A stretch of DNA of 64,000 bases from Haloferax sp. Q22. GTDB lineage: Archaea > Halobacteriota > Halobacteria > Halobacteriales > Haloferacaceae. Every line of letters starts with the position of its first letter. The stretch's first letter is position 1. The notes under the pieces are model-generated. The model did not search any database and was not told the origin of the DNA. It saw only the letters and a program-made list of their open reading frames with translations. Made by a program: the position numbers and the translations under genes. Below are positions 13,233-21,088 of this stretch, one piece after another. The stretch spans positions 224,141 to 288,140 of the forward strand of contig NZ_LOEP01000032.1 in NCBI RefSeq assembly GCF_001482285.1. Direction: 5' to 3'.

Positions 13233-15254
13233 ATGGCAGGTATCTTAGACTTCGCTCCGGCCATCGTCCTCCTCCCGTTCCTCTCGTTCCTGATCGCGCT
13301 CGGGGCGGGACGGTACATGCCGAAGGGAGGGGCGCTGGCGGGTATCGGCGCGACGGCGGGCTCGTTCGTCCTGTCGATCGCGACGTTCTTCGCCGTCAGC
13401 GGCGGACAGACTTACAACCAAACGATTTACACGTGGGCGGAGGGCCTCGACGCCATCAACCTGACGTTCGGTCTACTCATCGACCCGCTTTCGTCGATGA
13501 TGCTCGTCATCGTGACGCTCGTCGCGCTCCTCGTCCACATCTTCAGCCTCGGCTACATGAACGACGAGGGCGAGACTGGTCTCCCGCGCTACTACGCCGG
13601 GCTCGGCCTGTTCACCGCCTCCATGCTCGGGTTCGTCGTCGCCGACAACCTGCTCATGGCGTTCATGTTCTTCGAGCTGGTGGGCCTGTGTTCCTACCTG
13701 CTCATCGGCTTCCACTTCCGGCAGGACGGCCCGCCGAGTGCCGCGAAGAAGGCGTTCCTCGTCACCCGCTTCGGTGACTACTTCTTCCTCATCGGCGTCG
13801 TCGCGGTGTTCGCGACGTTCGGCTCCGCCGCCTTCGCCGGCCCGGACGCCTTCCCGGTTCTCGCCGAGGAAGCGCTCAACGGCGAACACTCGGTCAACAC
13901 GTTCCTCGGTATGGGAGAACAGGCGTGGTTCACCGTCGTCGGCCTCCTCGTTCTCGGGGGCGTCGTCGGGAAGTCCGCACAGTTCCCTCTGCACACGTGG
14001 CTCCCGGACGCGATGGAAGGTCCGACGCCCGTCTCCGCGCTCATCCACGCAGCGACGATGGTCGCGGCCGGTGTCTACCTCGTCGCCCGGATGTACGGGT
14101 TCTACGTGCTGACGCCGACGACGCTCGCCATCATCGCCCTCATCGGGGGCTTCACCGCCCTCTTTGCGGCGACCATGGGCGTCGTCAAGAAAGAAATCAA
14201 GCAGGTGCTCGCGTACTCGACTATCAGCCAGTACGGCTACATGATGCTCGGCCTCGGTGCCGGTGGCTACGTCGCGGCGACGTTCCACCTCATGACGCAC
14301 GCCTTCTTCAAGGCGCTGCTGTTCCTGGGTGCCGGTTCGGTCATCATCGCGATGCACCACAACGAGAACATGTGGGACATGGGCGGTCTGAAAGACAAGA
14401 TGCCCGTGACCTACTACGCGTTCCTCTCCGGGTCGCTCGCCCTCGCGGGCATCGTCCCGTTCGCAGGCTTCTGGTCGAAAGACGAGGTCCTCTACGAGAC
14501 GCTTATTCACGGCCTCGGTGGCAGTCCGATTCTGCTCGCTGCGTACGCGATGGGCCTGCTCGCCGTGTTCTTCACGGGGTTCTACACCTTCCGGATGGTG
14601 TTCCTCACCTTCCACGGCGAGCCACGGTCCGGAACGGCGCGTGACCCCCACGGCGTTCGCTGGAACGTCAAGGGTCCGCTCGCCGTTCTCGGCGTGCTCG
14701 CCGCGACGACCGGGCTCGTCAACATGGTCCCGGTCGAGAAGCTCTTCGGCATCAAGGGAATCGACTTCCTGCACCAGTTCCTCGACGGAAGCTTCAGCTC
14801 GCTGAACGCGCACCACTACGCCGAACTCATCCCGTACAGTTCGGGCTACATCGGCGGCGAGGCCGGAACGGTCGCTATCGGTGCGGCCGTCTCGCTCGGC
14901 TTCGCGCTCGGCGGTGCCGCGCTCGCACACGTGCTGTACAACGTCCCCGAGCCCGTCGAACACACGGACAAGCTCGGGAGCATCAAGACCGTACTGTACA
15001 ACAACTACTACCAGGACGAGTACCAGGTCTGGATCGCGACCGGCGTCGTCCAGCCCATCTCGCGCGTCCTCGATAAGTTCGACCAGGGTATCGTCGACGG
15101 CGTCGTCAACGGTATCTCCAGCGTGAGCCTGTTCGCTGGCGGTCGCGTCAAGCGCATTCAGACCGGTGTGGTGAGCAACTACGTGGCGCTCCTCACGCTC
15201 GGTCTGACCGCGCTGCTTCTCGGTCTCGGCCTGCTCGGAGGTTGGTTCGCATGA
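13233..15254 (+). CDS. nuoL: Complex I antiporter-like subunit L
   Basis: Largest proton-pumping subunit, 673 aa, distal in the membrane arm. Seen: FVVADNLLMAFMFFELVGLCSYLLIGF (conserved Glu of helix 5, about residue 150), the LPDAMEGPTPVSALIHAATMVAAGVYLVARM core (about 255-285), KKEIKQVLAYSTISQYGYMM (channel Lys and His region) and a C-terminal extension (about 480-673) holding the long lateral helix region. The length and motifs are normal for NuoL. Its stop overlaps the nuoM ATG. Confidence 0.97.
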   Translation: MAGILDFAPAIVLLPFLSFLIALGAGRYMPKGGALAGIGATAGSFVLSIATFFAVSGGQTYNQTIYTWAEGLDAINLTFGLLIDPLSSMMLVIVTLVALLVHIFSLGYMNDEGETGLPRYYAGLGLFTASMLGFVVADNLLMAFMFFELVGLCSYLLIGFHFRQDGPPSAAKKAFLVTRFGDYFFLIGVVAVFATFGSAAFAGPDAFPVLAEEALNGEHSVNTFLGMGEQAWFTVVGLLVLGGVVGKSAQFPLHTWLPDAMEGPTPVSALIHAATMVAAGVYLVARMYGFYVLTPTTLAIIALIGGFTALFAATMGVVKKEIKQVLAYSTISQYGYMMLGLGAGGYVAATFHLMTHAFFKALLFLGAGSVIIAMHHNENMWDMGGLKDKMPVTYYAFLSGSLALAGIVPFAGFWSKDEVLYETLIHGLGGSPILLAAYAMGLLAVFFTGFYTFRMVFLTFHGEPRSGTARDPHGVRWNVKGPLAVLGVLAATTGLVNMVPVEKLFGIKGIDFLHQFLDGSFSSLNAHHYAELIPYSSGYIGGEAGTVAIGAAVSLGFALGGAALAHVLYNVPEPVEHTDKLGSIKTVLYNNYYQDEYQVWIATGVVQPISRVLDKFDQGIVDGVVNGISSVSLFAGGRVKRIQTGVVSNYVALLTLGLTALLLGLGLLGGWFA

Positions 15255-16780
15255 TAATCGAAGCGCTCATCGCAGTCACGTTCCTCGCCGCGCTGGTCAC
15301 CTTCGTCCTGCCGGACCGGTACGCCGGCAAGGCGGCCTTCGCGCTGAGTCTGGCTCCCGTCATCGGGAGCCTCTACATGTGGCAACAGTACGACGCGAGC
15401 GGGAACGCCTTACTCGGCGGGAACATCGCGTTCGAGACAGACGTCGTCTGGCTGCAACTCGGCCAGTACGACCTCCACTGGATGGTCGGCGTCGACGGCA
15501 TCAGTATGCCGCTCGTCGTCCTCACGACCATCCTCACCACGCTCGCTATCGTCAGCGCCTGGACGCCGATCGCGGAGCGTCAGTCCCAGTTCTTCGGGCT
15601 GATGCTCCTGATGGAGGCGAACCTGCTCGGCGTCTTCACGGCGCTCGACTTCTTCGTCTGGTTCGTCTTCTGGGAGGCCGTCCTCGTCCCGATGTACTTC
15701 CTCATCGGCGTCTGGGGCGGTCCCCGCCGCAAGTACGCGGCGATTAAGTTCTTCGTCTACACGAACATCGCGTCGCTCGTGATGTTCATCGGGTTCATCT
15801 CGCTGGTGTTCGGCCTCGGCGACTCGATTACGTCGCTGCGGTTGCCCGAGATTGCCCAAGCGTTGCAGGCCGGGCAGCTCGGAAGCTTCGCGGGACTGTC
15901 GGCCGGCGCGCTCGCGTCGGTCGCGTTCATCGCGATGTTCTTCGGGTTCGCGGTCAAGGTCCCGGTCGCCCCGCTTCACACGTGGCTGCCGGACGCACAC
16001 GTTGAGGCCCCCACGCCGGTGTCGGTCATGCTGGCGGGGGTCCTCCTGAAGATGGGTACGTACGCCCTGCTCCGGTTCAACTTCACGATGCTGCCGGAGA
16101 CGGCGCGCGCCTTCGCGCTGCCCATCGCCCTGCTCGCCGTCGCGAGCGTCATCTACGGCGCGCTTCTCGCGCTGGCACAGCAGGACCTCAAGCGTATCGT
16201 CGCGTACTCCTCTGTCTCGTCGATGGGGTACGTCATCCTCGGTCTCATCGCCTACACCACCTACGGCGTCGGCGGTGCGACCTTCCAGATGGTCGCCCAC
16301 GGCCTCATCTCCGGTCTGATGTTCATGGCCGTCGGCGTCATCTACAACACGACCCACACGCGCATGGTGTCAGACATGTCCGGTATCGCCGACCGGATGC
16401 CCGTCACGGCGGGCATCTTCGTCGCCGGTGCGTTCGGCTACATGGGCCTGCCGCTCATGGCCGGCTTCGCCGCGGAGTTCTTCATCTTCAAGGGCGCGTT
16501 CGAGTCCACGGTGATGGAGGCGATGCCGCTGTTTACCGGCGCCGCGATGTTCGGTATCGTCATCGTCGCCGGCTACCTGCTGTTCGCGATGCAGCGGACG
16601 CTGTTCGGACCCTTCCGGTTCGACGGCGACTACGACGTCACGGAGGCGCCGTTCCACGACGTCGCACCCCTCGCGGTGCTGCTGCTTCTCACCATCGTGC
16701 TCGGTGTCTCTCCGGACATCTTCTTCACGATGATTCAGGACGCGGTTAATCCGATTCTCGAACTGGGAGGTGCGTTCTAG
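15251..16780 (+). CDS. nuoM: Complex I antiporter-like subunit M
   Basis: Proton-pumping subunit of 509 aa with 13-14 helices. The ATG at 15251 overlaps the nuoL stop (ATGA) and is preferred to an in-frame TTG 9 nt earlier. Seen: FFVWFVFWEAVLVPMYFLIGVWGG (conserved Glu about residue 140), KVPVAPLHTWLPDAHVEAPTPVSVMLAGVLLKMG and QQDLKRIVAYSSVSSMGYVILG, all classic NuoM signatures including the channel Lys and His residues. nuoN follows directly without a spacer. Confidence 0.97.
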   Translation: MIIEALIAVTFLAALVTFVLPDRYAGKAAFALSLAPVIGSLYMWQQYDASGNALLGGNIAFETDVVWLQLGQYDLHWMVGVDGISMPLVVLTTILTTLAIVSAWTPIAERQSQFFGLMLLMEANLLGVFTALDFFVWFVFWEAVLVPMYFLIGVWGGPRRKYAAIKFFVYTNIASLVMFIGFISLVFGLGDSITSLRLPEIAQALQAGQLGSFAGLSAGALASVAFIAMFFGFAVKVPVAPLHTWLPDAHVEAPTPVSVMLAGVLLKMGTYALLRFNFTMLPETARAFALPIALLAVASVIYGALLALAQQDLKRIVAYSSVSSMGYVILGLIAYTTYGVGGATFQMVAHGLISGLMFMAVGVIYNTTHTRMVSDMSGIADRMPVTAGIFVAGAFGYMGLPLMAGFAAEFFIFKGAFESTVMEAMPLFTGAAMFGIVIVAGYLLFAMQRTLFGPFRFDGDYDVTEAPFHDVAPLAVLLLLTIVLGVSPDIFFTMIQDAVNPILELGGAF

Positions 16781-18301
16781 ATGACGCCCCTCCAGACGCT
16801 CCCCGAGTGGGCGGCGACGGCTCCCGCCATCGTGCTCGCGCTGACGGGACTCGCGCTGCTGCTCATCGACACCATCGACCCGGACTCCACGAACAACGGC
16901 CTGCTGGCCGGCACGGCGACGCTCGGCGCGCTCGCCGCCGGCGGCATCGCCGCCTGGTTCCTCATCGGTGGAACCGGTATGGAGTCTACCGGCGGCGCGA
17001 TTTCGCTGTACGGCGACGCGCTCGTCGTCGACGGGATGAGCCTGTTCTTCACGCTCATCTTCACCAGCGTCACCGCGATGGTGACCGTCGCCTCCTACGA
17101 CTATCTCGCGGACGAGGAGTACCAGGGTGAGTTCTACTCGCTCGTCATATTCGCCGCGACCGGTATGACGCTCATGGGGATGGCGAACTCGCTGGCGACC
17201 GTCTTCGTCAGTCTCGAACTCGCGTCCCTCCCCTCGTACGCGCTCGTCGCGTTCCTCAAGAAGGACCGCGGCAGCATCGAGGCGGGCCTCAAGTACTTCC
17301 TCATCGGCGCGCTGTCGTCGGCGGTGTTCGCGTTCGGTATCAGCCTCGTGTTCGCCGTCACCGGCTCGCTGGTGCTCCCGGAAGTCGCCGCGACGCTTGC
17401 TGAGGGCACCGAACTCGTCGGCGTCCTCGGCCTCGGCGTGCTGATGATCGCCGGCGGCTTCGCGTTCAAGACCGCCTCCGTTCCGTTCCACTTCTGGGCG
17501 CCGGAGGCCTACGAGGGCGCGCCCGCTCCCGTGAGCGCGTTCCTCTCGTCGGCGTCGAAGGCGGCCGGCTTCGCCGTCGCCTTCCGCGTCTTCACCGTCG
17601 CGTTCCCCCTCGAGACCGTCACCGCGGTCGGCGGCGGGAGCGTCGACTGGTCGCTTCTGTTCGCGCTGCTCGCCGTCGTCACGATGACGCTCGGTAACTT
17701 CGCGGCGGCGACCCAAGAGAACGTCAAGCGCATGCTGGCGTACTCCTCTATCGGGCACGCCGGCTACGCGCTCATCGGGCTCGCGGCCATCACCGTCGAC
17801 GGCGGTGCCGCGAACGGTGACGTGCTCGGCGCGAGCATGGCCCACCTGCTCGTCTACGGCTTCATGAACACGGGCGCGTTCCTGTTCATCGCCATGGTCG
17901 AAAAGTGGGGCCTCGGCCGCACGTTCGAGGACTACAACGGCATCGCGTCGAAGGCGCCCATCGCCGCGACGGCGATGACCGTCTTCATGTTCTCGCTCGC
18001 CGGCCTGCCACCGTTCGGCGGCTTCGTCTCGAAGTACGCGCTGTTCTACTCGGCCATCGAGTCCGGCTTCTGGTGGCTCGCCGCCTTCGGTGCGGTCAAC
18101 AGCGCGCTGTCGCTGTTCTACTACAGCCGTGTCGTGAAGGCGATGTGGATCGAGGAGCCGTCGAAGCCCCTCGAAATCGGCAGCCAGCCGGTCGGTCTCT
18201 ACGTGGCGATTATCTTCGCCGCGGTCGGGACGGTCCTGCTCCTGCCCGGCTTCCAGCCCGTCATCGAGACGGCCCAGACCGTCGCCGCGGCGCTCTTCTG
18301 A
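16781..18301 (+). CDS. nuoN: Complex I antiporter-like subunit N
   Basis: Third antiporter-like subunit, 506 aa, next to NuoK/J in the membrane arm. Its ATG abuts the nuoM stop. Seen: SLATVFVSLELASLPSYALVAFLKK (conserved Glu of helix 5, about residue 147), ASVPFHFWAPEAYEGAPAPVSAFLSSASKAAGFA (about 228-262) and QENVKRMLAYSSIGHAGYALIG (channel Lys). It is the last gene of the operon; the next gene is convergent, so no NuoE, F or G lies downstream. Confidence 0.97.
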   Translation: MTPLQTLPEWAATAPAIVLALTGLALLLIDTIDPDSTNNGLLAGTATLGALAAGGIAAWFLIGGTGMESTGGAISLYGDALVVDGMSLFFTLIFTSVTAMVTVASYDYLADEEYQGEFYSLVIFAATGMTLMGMANSLATVFVSLELASLPSYALVAFLKKDRGSIEAGLKYFLIGALSSAVFAFGISLVFAVTGSLVLPEVAATLAEGTELVGVLGLGVLMIAGGFAFKTASVPFHFWAPEAYEGAPAPVSAFLSSASKAAGFAVAFRVFTVAFPLETVTAVGGGSVDWSLLFALLAVVTMTLGNFAAATQENVKRMLAYSSIGHAGYALIGLAAITVDGGAANGDVLGASMAHLLVYGFMNTGAFLFIAMVEKWGLGRTFEDYNGIASKAPIAATAMTVFMFSLAGLPPFGGFVSKYALFYSAIESGFWWLAAFGAVNSALSLFYYSRVVKAMWIEEPSKPLEIGSQPVGLYVAIIFAAVGTVLLLPGFQPVIETAQTVAAALF

Positions 18302-18334: not shown

Positions 18335-18715
18335 TTATTCCCGCAGTAACTCGCCGAGCGCCGACGCCAACTCCTCGGACCGTCTGAGCGTCAGGCCGTC
18401 GGTCGTGACGAACACGCCCTTGTCGTCGTCGGTCACCCGCGTCAGGTAGCCGTGGTCGAACGCGCGGACAGTGTACCGGTAGTTCCCGAGTTCGGAGCCA
18501 CGGTAGGCGGTCCGCGCCTGAAACCCGTCGGTCTCGTGTTCGACGAACCCGGTGAGGTCGGCGTCGGCTTCGAGGTCGCTTCGAAGGTATATCTGGTCGC
18601 ACCGGTCGTGCGTGAAGTACGTCACGCTCCTGAGGTCGTCGCCGACGACGGTTCGACAGGTTCGGACGAACGACTCGGCGCGCGACTCGGGGAGGAGTTG
18701 CGTCTCGAGTTCCAT
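18335..18715 (-). CDS. Conserved haloarchaeal protein of unknown function (DUF7522-like)
   Basis: Soluble 126-aa protein with an alternating alpha/beta look and no known catalytic motif. Seen: TYFTHDRCDQIYLRSDLEADADLTGFVEHE, the RGSELGNYRYTVRAFDHGYLTRVTDDDKGVFVTTDGLTL block and a C-terminal helix (SEELASALGELLRE). I recall similar proteins in many haloarchaea, sometimes beside other regulators. The ATG at 18715 was chosen because a TATA box is about 30 bp before it; an in-frame ATG at 18739 would sit nearly on that box. Function unknown. Confidence 0.75.
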   Translation of the reverse strand: MELETQLLPESRAESFVRTCRTVVGDDLRSVTYFTHDRCDQIYLRSDLEADADLTGFVEHETDGFQARTAYRGSELGNYRYTVRAFDHGYLTRVTDDDKGVFVTTDGLTLRRSEELASALGELLRE

Positions 18716-18742
18716 CGTATATGTGTCATGCGTTGGCATGAC

Positions 18743-18749: not shown

Positions 18750-18804
18750 CATCGCCGGATGGGAGGACGGTAGGGTTTTGCGGCCGGAGTCCGACCCTCC
18801 GTGT

Positions 18805-20262
18805 ATGGTACGTCGCCTGGTTCTCGGCTGCGGGTCGCTCGGCGGGAACCTCGTCGAGCAACTCGCCGACCGCGGGGGGACGGTAACGGTCGTCACGGAC
18901 CGGAAAGGCCACGCCGATGACCTCCGTTCGGACGGCATCGCCGCGAGGGAGGGCGACCCCGCCGACCCGTCGAACTACCCCGACGCGGCCGACCTCATCG
19001 TCGTCGGGGGGCAGTCCTCGGCGTCGAATCTCGACGCGGCGCGCGCGGCCCGCGACCGATTCCCCGACGCACCGCTCGTCGTCTACCTCGGCGACGACGC
19101 CGACCCGTCGGTCCGCGCCGACATCGACGCACTGGCCGACGAGGTCATCGATCCGCGTCGAATCGTCTCCGGGCGAATCCTCGACGCCGTCGGCACGTCG
19201 CACACGGAGCGGTTGAACCGCCTGATGCGCGTCCTCCGAAACCTCGACGGTAGGCTCGCGGTCGTGATGCACGACAACCCGGACCCCGACGCCATCGCCG
19301 CGGCGCTGGCGCTGCAAGCCATCGCCGAGCGGGCGAGCGTCGACGCAGACGTGTGTTACTTCGGCGACATCTCTCATCAGGAGAACCGCGCGCTCGTGAA
19401 CCTCCTCGATTTGGACCTTCGGGTTCTCGACGAGGTTCCGGCGGACGACGAGTACGCCGGCTTCGCGCTCGTCGACCACTCCCGACCGGGCGTCAACGAC
19501 CGCCTGCCACCGGAGACGACCATCGACATCGTCATCGACCACCACCCGCCGCGCGCGCCGGTCGAAGCGGCGTACGTTGACCTCAGACGCGGCGTCGGCG
19601 CGACGAGCACACTGCTCGCGGAGTACCTCGAACGGCTCGGCATCGTCCCCAACACGACGGTGGCGACGGCCCTCCTGTTCGGGATTCAGGTCGACACTAA
19701 CGACTTCACGCGGGAGGTCTCGACCGCCGACTTCGAGGCCGCCGCCTTCCTCATCCCCCACGTCGACATGGACCTGCTCGAACGGGTCGAGACACCGAGT
19801 CTGACCTCCGAGACGATGGAGACGCTCGCCCGCGCCATCTCGAACCGCGACGTTCGGGGGAACGTCCTCACGACGAACGTCGGCGATATCCGCGAGCGGG
19901 ACGCGCTCGCGCAGGCCGCCGACCACCTCCTCGGGATGGAGGGCGTCGAGGTGACGGTCGTCTACGGACTGATGGACGGCACCGTCTACGTCTCCGGTCG
20001 CGCCCGCGGGGCGAAAGTCGACCTCGGAGAGACGTTCCGCGACGCCCTCGGCTCTATCGGGAGCGCCGGCGGCCACGCGGACATGGCGGGCGCACAGATT
20101 CCACTGGGCATCCTCGACGACGTGGGCGACGACTCCCGGGAGTCGCTCGCGACCATCGTCACGGACATCGTCGCCGGGCGGATGTTCGAGACGCTGGAGC
20201 ACGCGACGCCGACGCCGAGTCTGGACACCGATGTGGCCTTCGAGTACCCGCTCGATGAGTGA
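18805..20262 (+). CDS. TrkA-N / DHH-DHHA1 family phosphoesterase
   Basis: Two-part cytoplasmic protein of 485 aa. Residues about 3-120 form a Rossmann nucleotide-binding (TrkA-N/RCK-like) domain starting LVLGCGSLGGNLVEQLADRG. Residues about 150-300 are a DHH phosphoesterase core: MHDNPDPDAIAAALALQAIA (DNxDxD metal motif), YFGDISH, ALVDHSRPG and DIVIDHHPP (DHH box). Residues about 400-485 are a DHHA1 domain with GSIGSAGGHADMAGAQIP, the usual GGGH-like substrate loop. Bacterial DHH-DHHA1 enzymes with regulatory domains (GdpP) hydrolyse cyclic di-AMP, so a c-di-AMP or pApA phosphodiesterase is a reasonable guess; nanoRNase is the alternative. The ATG at 18805 fits the start of the Rossmann strand. 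Confidence 0.88.
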   Translation: MVRRLVLGCGSLGGNLVEQLADRGGTVTVVTDRKGHADDLRSDGIAAREGDPADPSNYPDAADLIVVGGQSSASNLDAARAARDRFPDAPLVVYLGDDADPSVRADIDALADEVIDPRRIVSGRILDAVGTSHTERLNRLMRVLRNLDGRLAVVMHDNPDPDAIAAALALQAIAERASVDADVCYFGDISHQENRALVNLLDLDLRVLDEVPADDEYAGFALVDHSRPGVNDRLPPETTIDIVIDHHPPRAPVEAAYVDLRRGVGATSTLLAEYLERLGIVPNTTVATALLFGIQVDTNDFTREVSTADFEAAAFLIPHVDMDLLERVETPSLTSETMETLARAISNRDVRGNVLTTNVGDIRERDALAQAADHLLGMEGVEVTVVYGLMDGTVYVSGRARGAKVDLGETFRDALGSIGSAGGHADMAGAQIPLGILDDVGDDSRESLATIVTDIVAGRMFETLEHATPTPSLDTDVAFEYPLDE

Positions 20263-20305
20263 ACGCCCACACGTTTTTGCCGACGGTGGCCCTATGGGGT
20301 GGGAG

Positions 20306-21088
20306 ATGAGTACCAAAGCGACCGTCAAGGAGTACATGACGCGCGAGGTCCAGACCGTCTCTCCGACCGACACGGTCGCGGACGTCGCCCAACGCATCGC
20401 GGAGAGCGACGGGCACAACGGGTTTCCCGTCTGTGACGGTCGCAAGGCCGAGGGATTCGTCACGGCGCGGGATATCCTCCTCGCCGACGACGAGGCCCCC
20501 ATCGAGACGGTGATGGCGACGGACCTCGTCGTCGCTCACCCCGAGATGGACGTGAACGACGCCGCCCGCGTCATCCTCCGGTCGGGTATCCAGAAGCTCC
20601 CGGTCGTCGACGACGCGGGCAACCTCGTCGGCATCATCTCGAACACCGACGTCATCCGGAGCCAAATCGAGCGCGCGACGCCGGAGAAAGTGGGCAAACT
20701 CATGCGGACACTCGAGCAGATTCACGGCATCACGGTCCACCAGGAGCGCCGCACGGTCTCGCTTTCGAACCTCATTCCCACGCAGGCCCGCGTCTACGCC
20801 GACGAACTCGACGGTCGCCGCTACGAACTCGAACGCGGCCTCGCGGAGCCGCTCGTCGTCATCGACAACAACGGGACGCTGCTCCTCGCCGACGGCCACC
20901 ACCGCGTCCTCGCGGCCGACCGAATCGGCATCGAGGAGATGGACGCCTACATCATCGTCATCGACGACCCCGTCGAACTCGGAATGCAGCGGACCGCCGA
21001 AAAAGAGGGCCTCAAATCTATCTCGGACATCGACATCGTCGACTACGCGCGACACCCGCTGGTCGAGACGACGCGCCGACTCCAGTAG
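20306..21088 (+). CDS. CBS-pair and ParB/Srx-like domain protein
   Basis: A 260-aa cytoplasmic protein. Residues about 5-125 are two CBS motifs (VKEYMTREVQTVSPTDTVADVAQRI; DLVVAHPEMDVNDAARVILRSGIQKLPVVDD) that in other proteins bind adenine nucleotides such as AMP, ATP or c-di-AMP. Residues about 145-245 resemble a ParB/sulfiredoxin-type nucleotide-hydrolysing domain, with LIPTQARVYADEL and LLLADGHHRVLAADRIG, the GxHRxxA box of that clan. The ATG at 20306 was chosen because CBS1 begins right after it; upstream in-frame ATGs add an unconserved tail. It lies 43 nt after the DHH gene on the same strand and may share its transcript. Function unknown. Confidence 0.82.
   Translation: MSTKATVKEYMTREVQTVSPTDTVADVAQRIAESDGHNGFPVCDGRKAEGFVTARDILLADDEAPIETVMATDLVVAHPEMDVNDAARVILRSGIQKLPVVDDAGNLVGIISNTDVIRSQIERATPEKVGKLMRTLEQIHGITVHQERRTVSLSNLIPTQARVYADELDGRRYELERGLAEPLVVIDNNGTLLLADGHHRVLAADRIGIEEMDAYIIVIDDPVELGMQRTAEKEGLKSISDIDIVDYARHPLVETTRRLQ

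Follow-up and report, generated by a model that had tools for sequence, protein, structure and literature searches.

Do a phosphodiesterase-like gene and a CBS-ParB gene that lie side by side in Haloferax sp. Q22 serve one c-di-AMP pathway? In the window, the 64,000-nt stretch of this genome that we analysed, a gene for a protein with TrkA_N, DHH and DHHA1 domains (hereafter the DHH protein) is followed, after a spacer of 43 nt, by a gene for a protein with a CBS pair and a ParB/Srx-like domain (CBS-ParB; Table 1). The first-pass annotation had placed both genes exactly, and Pfam, family profile and structure agree with its domain assignments; it took the two for an undescribed nucleotide-signalling pair that acts on c-di-AMP and controls ion homeostasis. 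In Haloferax, c-di-AMP must be tightly controlled, and the enzyme that degrades it was stated to be unknown in papers of 2021 (PMC6741144, PMC8646023, PMC8305020). With slightly better than even confidence, we favour the reading that the first gene encodes a c-di-AMP hydrolase that balances diadenylate cyclase (DAC) and the second a CBS and ParB-fold reporter of energy state, which also has c-di-AMP-independent work.

Table 1. Features of the locus and of the two paralogues of the DHH protein; plain numbers are window positions, and the paralogues are given by locus (L) or by genome and contig (G:C).
Feature	Position	Strand	Details
Complex I (Nuo) membrane-subunit genes	13233..18301	+	upstream context; subunit names by sequence resemblance
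DUF7522 gene	18335..18739	-	between nuo operon and pair; Pfam PF24366, E 1.7e-54
TATA-like box, DHH gene	18774..18779	+	about 28 nt 5' of ATG
TrkA_N-DHH-DHHA1 protein	18805..20262	+	485 aa; ATG 18805, stop 20262
TrkA_N (RCK_N-like Rossmann) domain	18817..19116	+	residues 5-104; Pfam PF02254, E 1.8e-8
DHH domain	19258..19686	+	residues 152-294; Pfam PF01368, E 2.2e-10
DHHA1 domain	19861..20109	+	residues 353-435; Pfam PF02272, E 3e-12
TATA-like box, CBS-ParB gene	20274..20278	+	within the 43-nt spacer
CBS-CBS-ParB-like protein	20306..21088	+	260 aa; ATG 20306, stop 21088
CBS pair	20324..20665	+	residues ~7-120; Pfam PF00571, two stretches, E 3.9e-27
ParB/Srx-like domain	20753..20959	+	P motif DGHHR, residues 196-200
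par2, TrkA_N-DHH paralogue	L138:14205-15662 (-), G000:C22:50243-51622	-	24 kb from DAC gene; motifs DHF, ET; perfect Rossmann
par3, DHH-DHHA1 paralogue	L139 / L004, G000:C26:3278-4222		hydrophobic N-terminal transmembrane-like segment; catalytic motifs intact

The DHH protein, 98% identical to its counterparts in H. prahovense and H. gibbonsii, carries in our motif table HDNPDPDA, VDHS and VIDHH within the DHH domain, VDT directly beyond it, and SGRARG and AGGH (against the usual GGGH) in DHHA1. By Pfam it has no domain beyond these three, with PAS, degenerate GGDEF and RCK_C/TrkA_C all absent, and it is apparently soluble. The RCK_C domain is the known c-di-AMP site of RCK proteins. All 86 orthologues (72, plus 14 from a diverged genus) keep H156, D160, D162, D224, H225, D245, H246, H247, D297, R399, G422, G423 and H424. 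The Rossmann glycines G10 or G13 are lost in many of them, with GxGxxG intact in 50 of 71 orthologues and in none of the 13 complete ones of one genus, a loss that may be compatible with nucleotide binding. Lacking RCK_C, and with GxGxxG so often broken, the protein does not bear out the RCK nucleotide sensor that had been proposed for it. An apparent loss of the whole TrkA_N domain in one genus, where matches begin at about residue 131 in some genomes, was set aside, as the open reading frames show a diverged domain with G10 replaced by S.

In profile searches, the DHH protein scores best against GdpP (79 bits) and the GdpP catalytic domain 5xsi (72 bits), followed by Mn pyrophosphatases, TmPDE (39 bits) and NrnA/Rv2837c (about 34 bits). 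PDB 3llv, an exopolyphosphatase-related protein, matches its TrkA_N part. Foldseek comparison of its structure model (pLDDT 86.2, pTM 0.55) with the PDB puts NrnA proteins behind the GdpP catalytic domain (E 2e-21), Borrelia DhhP and TmPDE, and this ranking by E-value is suggestive of c-di-AMP as the substrate. The DHH protein is a probable c-di-AMP/pApA phosphodiesterase, with a predicted substrate and cellular role. Substrates of DHH-DHHA1 proteins are hard to predict, as illustrated by a pApase of Pyrococcus yayanosii that rejects c-di-AMP (PMC8268124).

Independent support for a role in c-di-AMP removal, at the level of the TrkA_N-DHH family only, comes from its co-absence with DAC. One set of 197 genomes from the phylum was searched for the family, for DAC and for the C-terminal domain of CBS-ParB; DAC and the family occur together in 171, DAC only in 6, the family only in 6 and neither in 14, the family thus being absent from 14 of the 20 cyclase-free genomes. 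At a completeness of at least 90%, the corresponding numbers are 146, 2, 5 and 12 (Fisher p 9e-13), although such Fisher values overstate the evidence, since the pattern goes back to only about two independent co-absences. In one order, the family is missing from all 33 genomes and DAC from 32; in one genus, five of seven genomes lack both and two have both. A relaxed search of 16 DHH-negative genomes returned weak, partial matches only. DAC occurs without the DHH protein in G136 (97% complete) and G176 (94%), and the reverse is seen in five near-complete genomes. Outside Halobacteria, the single-copy gene falls with the decayed haloarchaeal paralogue and not with the clade of the DHH protein, so that this co-occurrence bears on the DHH protein only via its family.

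In a tree of the DHH-DHHA1 region, well-supported clades correspond to the DHH protein, to par2 (the second TrkA_N paralogue, with which genes from outside Halobacteria group), to par3 (DHH-only, and probably membrane-anchored) and to a patchy fourth set. Most haloarchaeal genomes searched have two intact copies, the DHH protein and par3, and par2 as a third, regular but decayed copy. GxGxxG is present in all 30 par2 sequences, H247 in 4, E in place of D297 in all 30, and A in place of G422 in 23, which argues that the active site of this type (HVO_1690) has decayed and that it is catalytically degenerate. The 24 single-copy homologues from outside Halobacteria, two of which are truncated at the start, keep the Rossmann and catalytic sets; H225 is not conserved there, and since six of them carry E at D297, this exchange alone appears to be tolerated. 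Planctomycete DHH-DHHA1 proteins (L217, L218, L221; HDNPDPDA, ET, CGGH/AGGH) fall on a long branch inside the archaeal family tree, a placement that might reflect an old transfer.

The decay of the two TrkA_N proteins is complementary, the DHH protein keeping catalysis and often losing Rossmann glycines, and par2 the opposite. Because of this, one could conceive that a c-di-AMP hydrolase which sensed NAD(H) was divided between two proteins in haloarchaea, that these reassemble into a redox-gated hydrolase, and that CBS-ParB, next to complex I, contributes information on energy charge; we regard this as a long shot. Three c-di-AMP phosphodiesterases, HVO_0756, HVO_0990 and HVO_1690, have been predicted in Haloferax volcanii (He 2020, as cited in PMC8305020), and we infer from gene spacing that they correspond to par3, the DHH protein and par2, respectively: in G000, the genome that holds the window (at C26:224141-288140), par3 and the DHH gene are 240 kb apart, for a difference of 234 locus numbers, and par2 lies 24 kb from dacZ (HVO_1660; DAC match C22:74516), for a difference of 30. 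Our active-site survey narrows these three published candidates to two. HVO_0990 and HVO_1690 are both upregulated under hypochlorite stress (PMC10294847).

In CBS-ParB, both ribose-phosphate motifs of the CBS pair are present: GFVTARD, retained by 65 of 70 orthologues, and GIISNTD, retained by 68. DGHHR is found in all 70. The ParB-like part is sub-threshold in a single-sequence Pfam search (PF08857, E 0.028), and a single-sequence PDB search with it gave matches below threshold or noise; with a family profile of 25 sequences, the top three PDB matches are all ParB (4umk, E 0.002; 6sdk; 1vz0). In the AlphaFold2 model (pLDDT 85.6, pTM 0.56), the same domain matches mostly viral ParB/sulfiredoxin proteins in BFVD, while a Foldseek search of the PDB with the full model is swamped by CBS matches, such as AcuB. 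The HTH and C-terminal dimerisation domains of ParB are absent by Pfam, and ParA was not recognised among the recurrent neighbours of the pair in 41 loci.

Related genes occur elsewhere. Another CBS-ParB protein (L138:2064-2987 (-), G000:C22:38069-38830), which shares 47% identity with the one described here, is encoded next to genes of lactate-utilisation type, named by sequence resemblance (FAD/FeS oxidase, LctP-like permease, LutB/LutC-like). With a profile of the CBS-ParB C-terminal domain, we found single open reading frames with two copies of the ParB-like domain (G268:C1:4184-5356 and G245:C8:23645-24811), apparently internal duplications. Eight genomes (G131, G140, G149, G153, G158, G172, G178 and G202) have, besides CBS-ParB, an extra ParB-like gene of about 250 aa with a weak match (E 1e-12 to 1e-16).

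The DHH and CBS-ParB genes are both found in all 116 Halobacteria genomes searched. In 88 of these, CBS-ParB lies at most 500 nt downstream of the DHH gene on the same strand, and in 6 more the two are within 6 kb; given these numbers, the linkage is real and not a matter of chance. The 22 genomes without a close pair include 14 from one genus. Directly upstream of the pair stands the complex I operon in 30 of 41 genera and, in about 5 of 41, genes for 2-oxoacid:ferredoxin oxidoreductase (kor) instead, usually with an Lrp-type regulator; as the 41 loci were picked around the DHH gene, pair counts drawn from them are partly selected and these upstream counts are unaffected. One haloarchaeal family (L101, L105, L113, L118, L120, L124) has 2-oxoacid:ferredoxin oxidoreductase subunits upstream, usually with an Lrp-type regulator, in place of complex I. 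The DUF7522 gene between the nuo operon and the pair is found in few other genomes, with a homologue in the same position of L098. Across the 41 loci, conservation of gene order ends directly after CBS-ParB. No K+ transport family was recognised among the recurrent neighbours in these loci, where an ABC-2-type transporter pair appears in 7 of 41; with complex I or 2-oxoacid:ferredoxin oxidoreductase as the main neighbours, the suggested control of ion homeostasis finds no backing here.

Upstream of the DHH gene, the A/T fraction reaches 0.91-0.98 at -29 to -27, against 0.34 further upstream (58 non-redundant orthologues), and a TATA-like box is present in 56 of the 58 regions (2-11 in control windows); its transcript is probably leaderless. 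For CBS-ParB, the fraction is 0.86-0.88 at the same positions, and the box occurs in 48 of the 57 non-redundant regions, against 3-9 in control windows. Since each gene has its own conserved TATA-like box, the two are not simply one transcript.

Other explanations can be offered for each protein and for their association. The DHH protein might be a nanoRNase or pAp phosphatase of the NrnA kind, which would remove short RNAs, pApA or pAp and act on c-di-AMP, if at all, indirectly via pApA. NrnA and Rv2837c do match the fold strongly (E 1e-14 to 1e-16), pAp phosphatases of the DHH type are known from archaea (PMC8268124), and enzymes like NrnA accept a wide range of substrates (PMC12709177); yet NrnA stays below GdpP in both sequence and fold scores, and a housekeeping nanoRNase is not expected to disappear exactly where DAC is missing, so that we consider this identity unlikely. 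It is somewhat less likely still that CBS-ParB is a SerK-like small-molecule kinase under adenine-nucleotide control, unrelated to the DHH enzyme: the 25-sequence profile that finds ParB gives no SerK match among PDB chains, even with E values as high as 10 allowed, and clear SerK homologues occur, according to Makino et al., only in Thermococcales and Desulfurococcales, even though SerK has the same fold (PMC5120207, PMC12704722) and an invariant P motif without a DNA-binding or dimerisation domain would suit such a kinase.

As to the association, both genes may simply be carried in a conserved order downstream of complex I with no functional tie, a possibility that we rate as appreciable but short of even. 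The prevalence of complex I genes upstream speaks for it, as do the separate promoter elements and the retention and loss of CBS-ParB independently of the DHH gene; however, the pair is intact away from complex I, both behind kor and Lrp genes in about five genera and as isolated pairs (L096, L115, L123), and the conserved order stops precisely at its end. Very improbable, in our judgement, is the dedicated two-gene c-di-AMP module of the first-pass annotation, in which CBS-ParB binds c-di-AMP and controls the hydrolase. Adjacency is kept even where nuo is swapped for kor, and CbpB, a bacterial c-di-AMP-binding CBS family, weakly matches the CBS part (E 1.4e-6), but each gene has its own promoter element and the two are adjacent in none of the genomes compared outside Halobacteria. 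The distribution of CBS-ParB counts further against such a module: it is present in four genomes without DAC and DHH (G186, G210, G277, G285; from the same genus as the five double-negatives of seven), occurs in 5 DAC-free genomes in all while 57 DAC-bearing ones lack it, and is absent from the families f17, f20 and f22, in which most genomes encode DAC as well as DHH. Being kept where DAC and DHH are missing and missing from many genomes with both, CBS-ParB is not tied to c-di-AMP. The c-di-AMP link consequently survives for the DHH protein, the fold of which is closest to c-di-AMP hydrolases and the family of which is absent in step with DAC, and fails for its neighbour, which should be placed within c-di-AMP signalling only with caution.

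In the reading that we prefer, of a hydrolase beside an energy-state reporter, the active-site-competent DHH-DHHA1 phosphodiesterase would most likely cleave c-di-AMP to pApA and/or AMP and so balance diadenylate cyclase. The CBS pair of CBS-ParB is predicted to bind AMP, ADP or ATP, and its ParB fold an NTP; the protein would probably report energy state, may modulate the neighbouring DHH enzyme, and would also have to act independently of c-di-AMP. Such regulation is possible, as CBS domains built into DHH pyrophosphatases modulate the enzymes that carry them. The PRK14869 diphosphatases join DHH and CBS parts in one chain, and their models are matched by both of our proteins (a Rosetta stone), by the DHH protein over the DHH part and by CBS-ParB over the CBS part; the two may be in contact.

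Parts of this picture are already in the literature, and the pair can hardly be called undescribed: the enzyme idea was published with the prediction for HVO_0990, the presumed orthologue (PMC8305020), and a paper of 2025 described CBS-ParB fusions from archaea (PMC12704722). We found no earlier description of the conserved linkage of CBS-ParB to a DHH phosphodiesterase, of the independence of CBS-ParB from DAC, of the co-loss of the TrkA_N-DHH family with DAC, or of the complementary decay of two haloarchaeal paralogues.

Compared with known systems, the DHH protein differs from RCK/KtrA-TrkA regulatory subunits, which have RCK_C and work with a K+ channel or transporter: Pfam shows no RCK_C here, and no K+ transport gene was recognised among the recurrent neighbours. 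CBS-ParB shares the N-terminal fold of ParABS ParB and lacks its HTH and C-terminal dimerisation domain, with no parA recognised among the recurrent neighbours; a c-di-AMP receptor of the DarB/CbpB type would be expected only where c-di-AMP is made, with which the distribution of CBS-ParB disagrees. The CBS-containing family II pyrophosphatases (PRK14869) likewise combine DHH catalysis with a CBS pair, but in one polypeptide with DHHA2 instead of two proteins with DHHA1. Closer to CBS-ParB are the CBS-ParB fusions described by Kaljevic 2025 (PMC12704722), where they are the commonest archaeal ParB-fold fusion: these combine CBS domains with the ParB-CTPase fold and its GxxR P motif, also found in our protein, and are, like it, chromosomal and vertically inherited, in haloarchaea and other euryarchaea. 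With GdpP and DhhP (Pde2, CnpB, TmPDE), the DHH protein has in common a DHH-DHHA1 core in which every metal-binding and GGH residue is present; GdpP adds PAS-GGDEF and DhhP no further domain, whereas the DHH protein, as far as sequence and model tell, adds TrkA_N. Its architecture is that of arCOG01566 (Makarova 2012, PMC3307487), a set of DHH-DHHA1 proteins from archaea that in some cases include a Rossmann domain. We assign it to this set by description, and within the set its clade stands out as a haloarchaeal paralogue with the catalytic residues intact and the Rossmann motif partly decayed.
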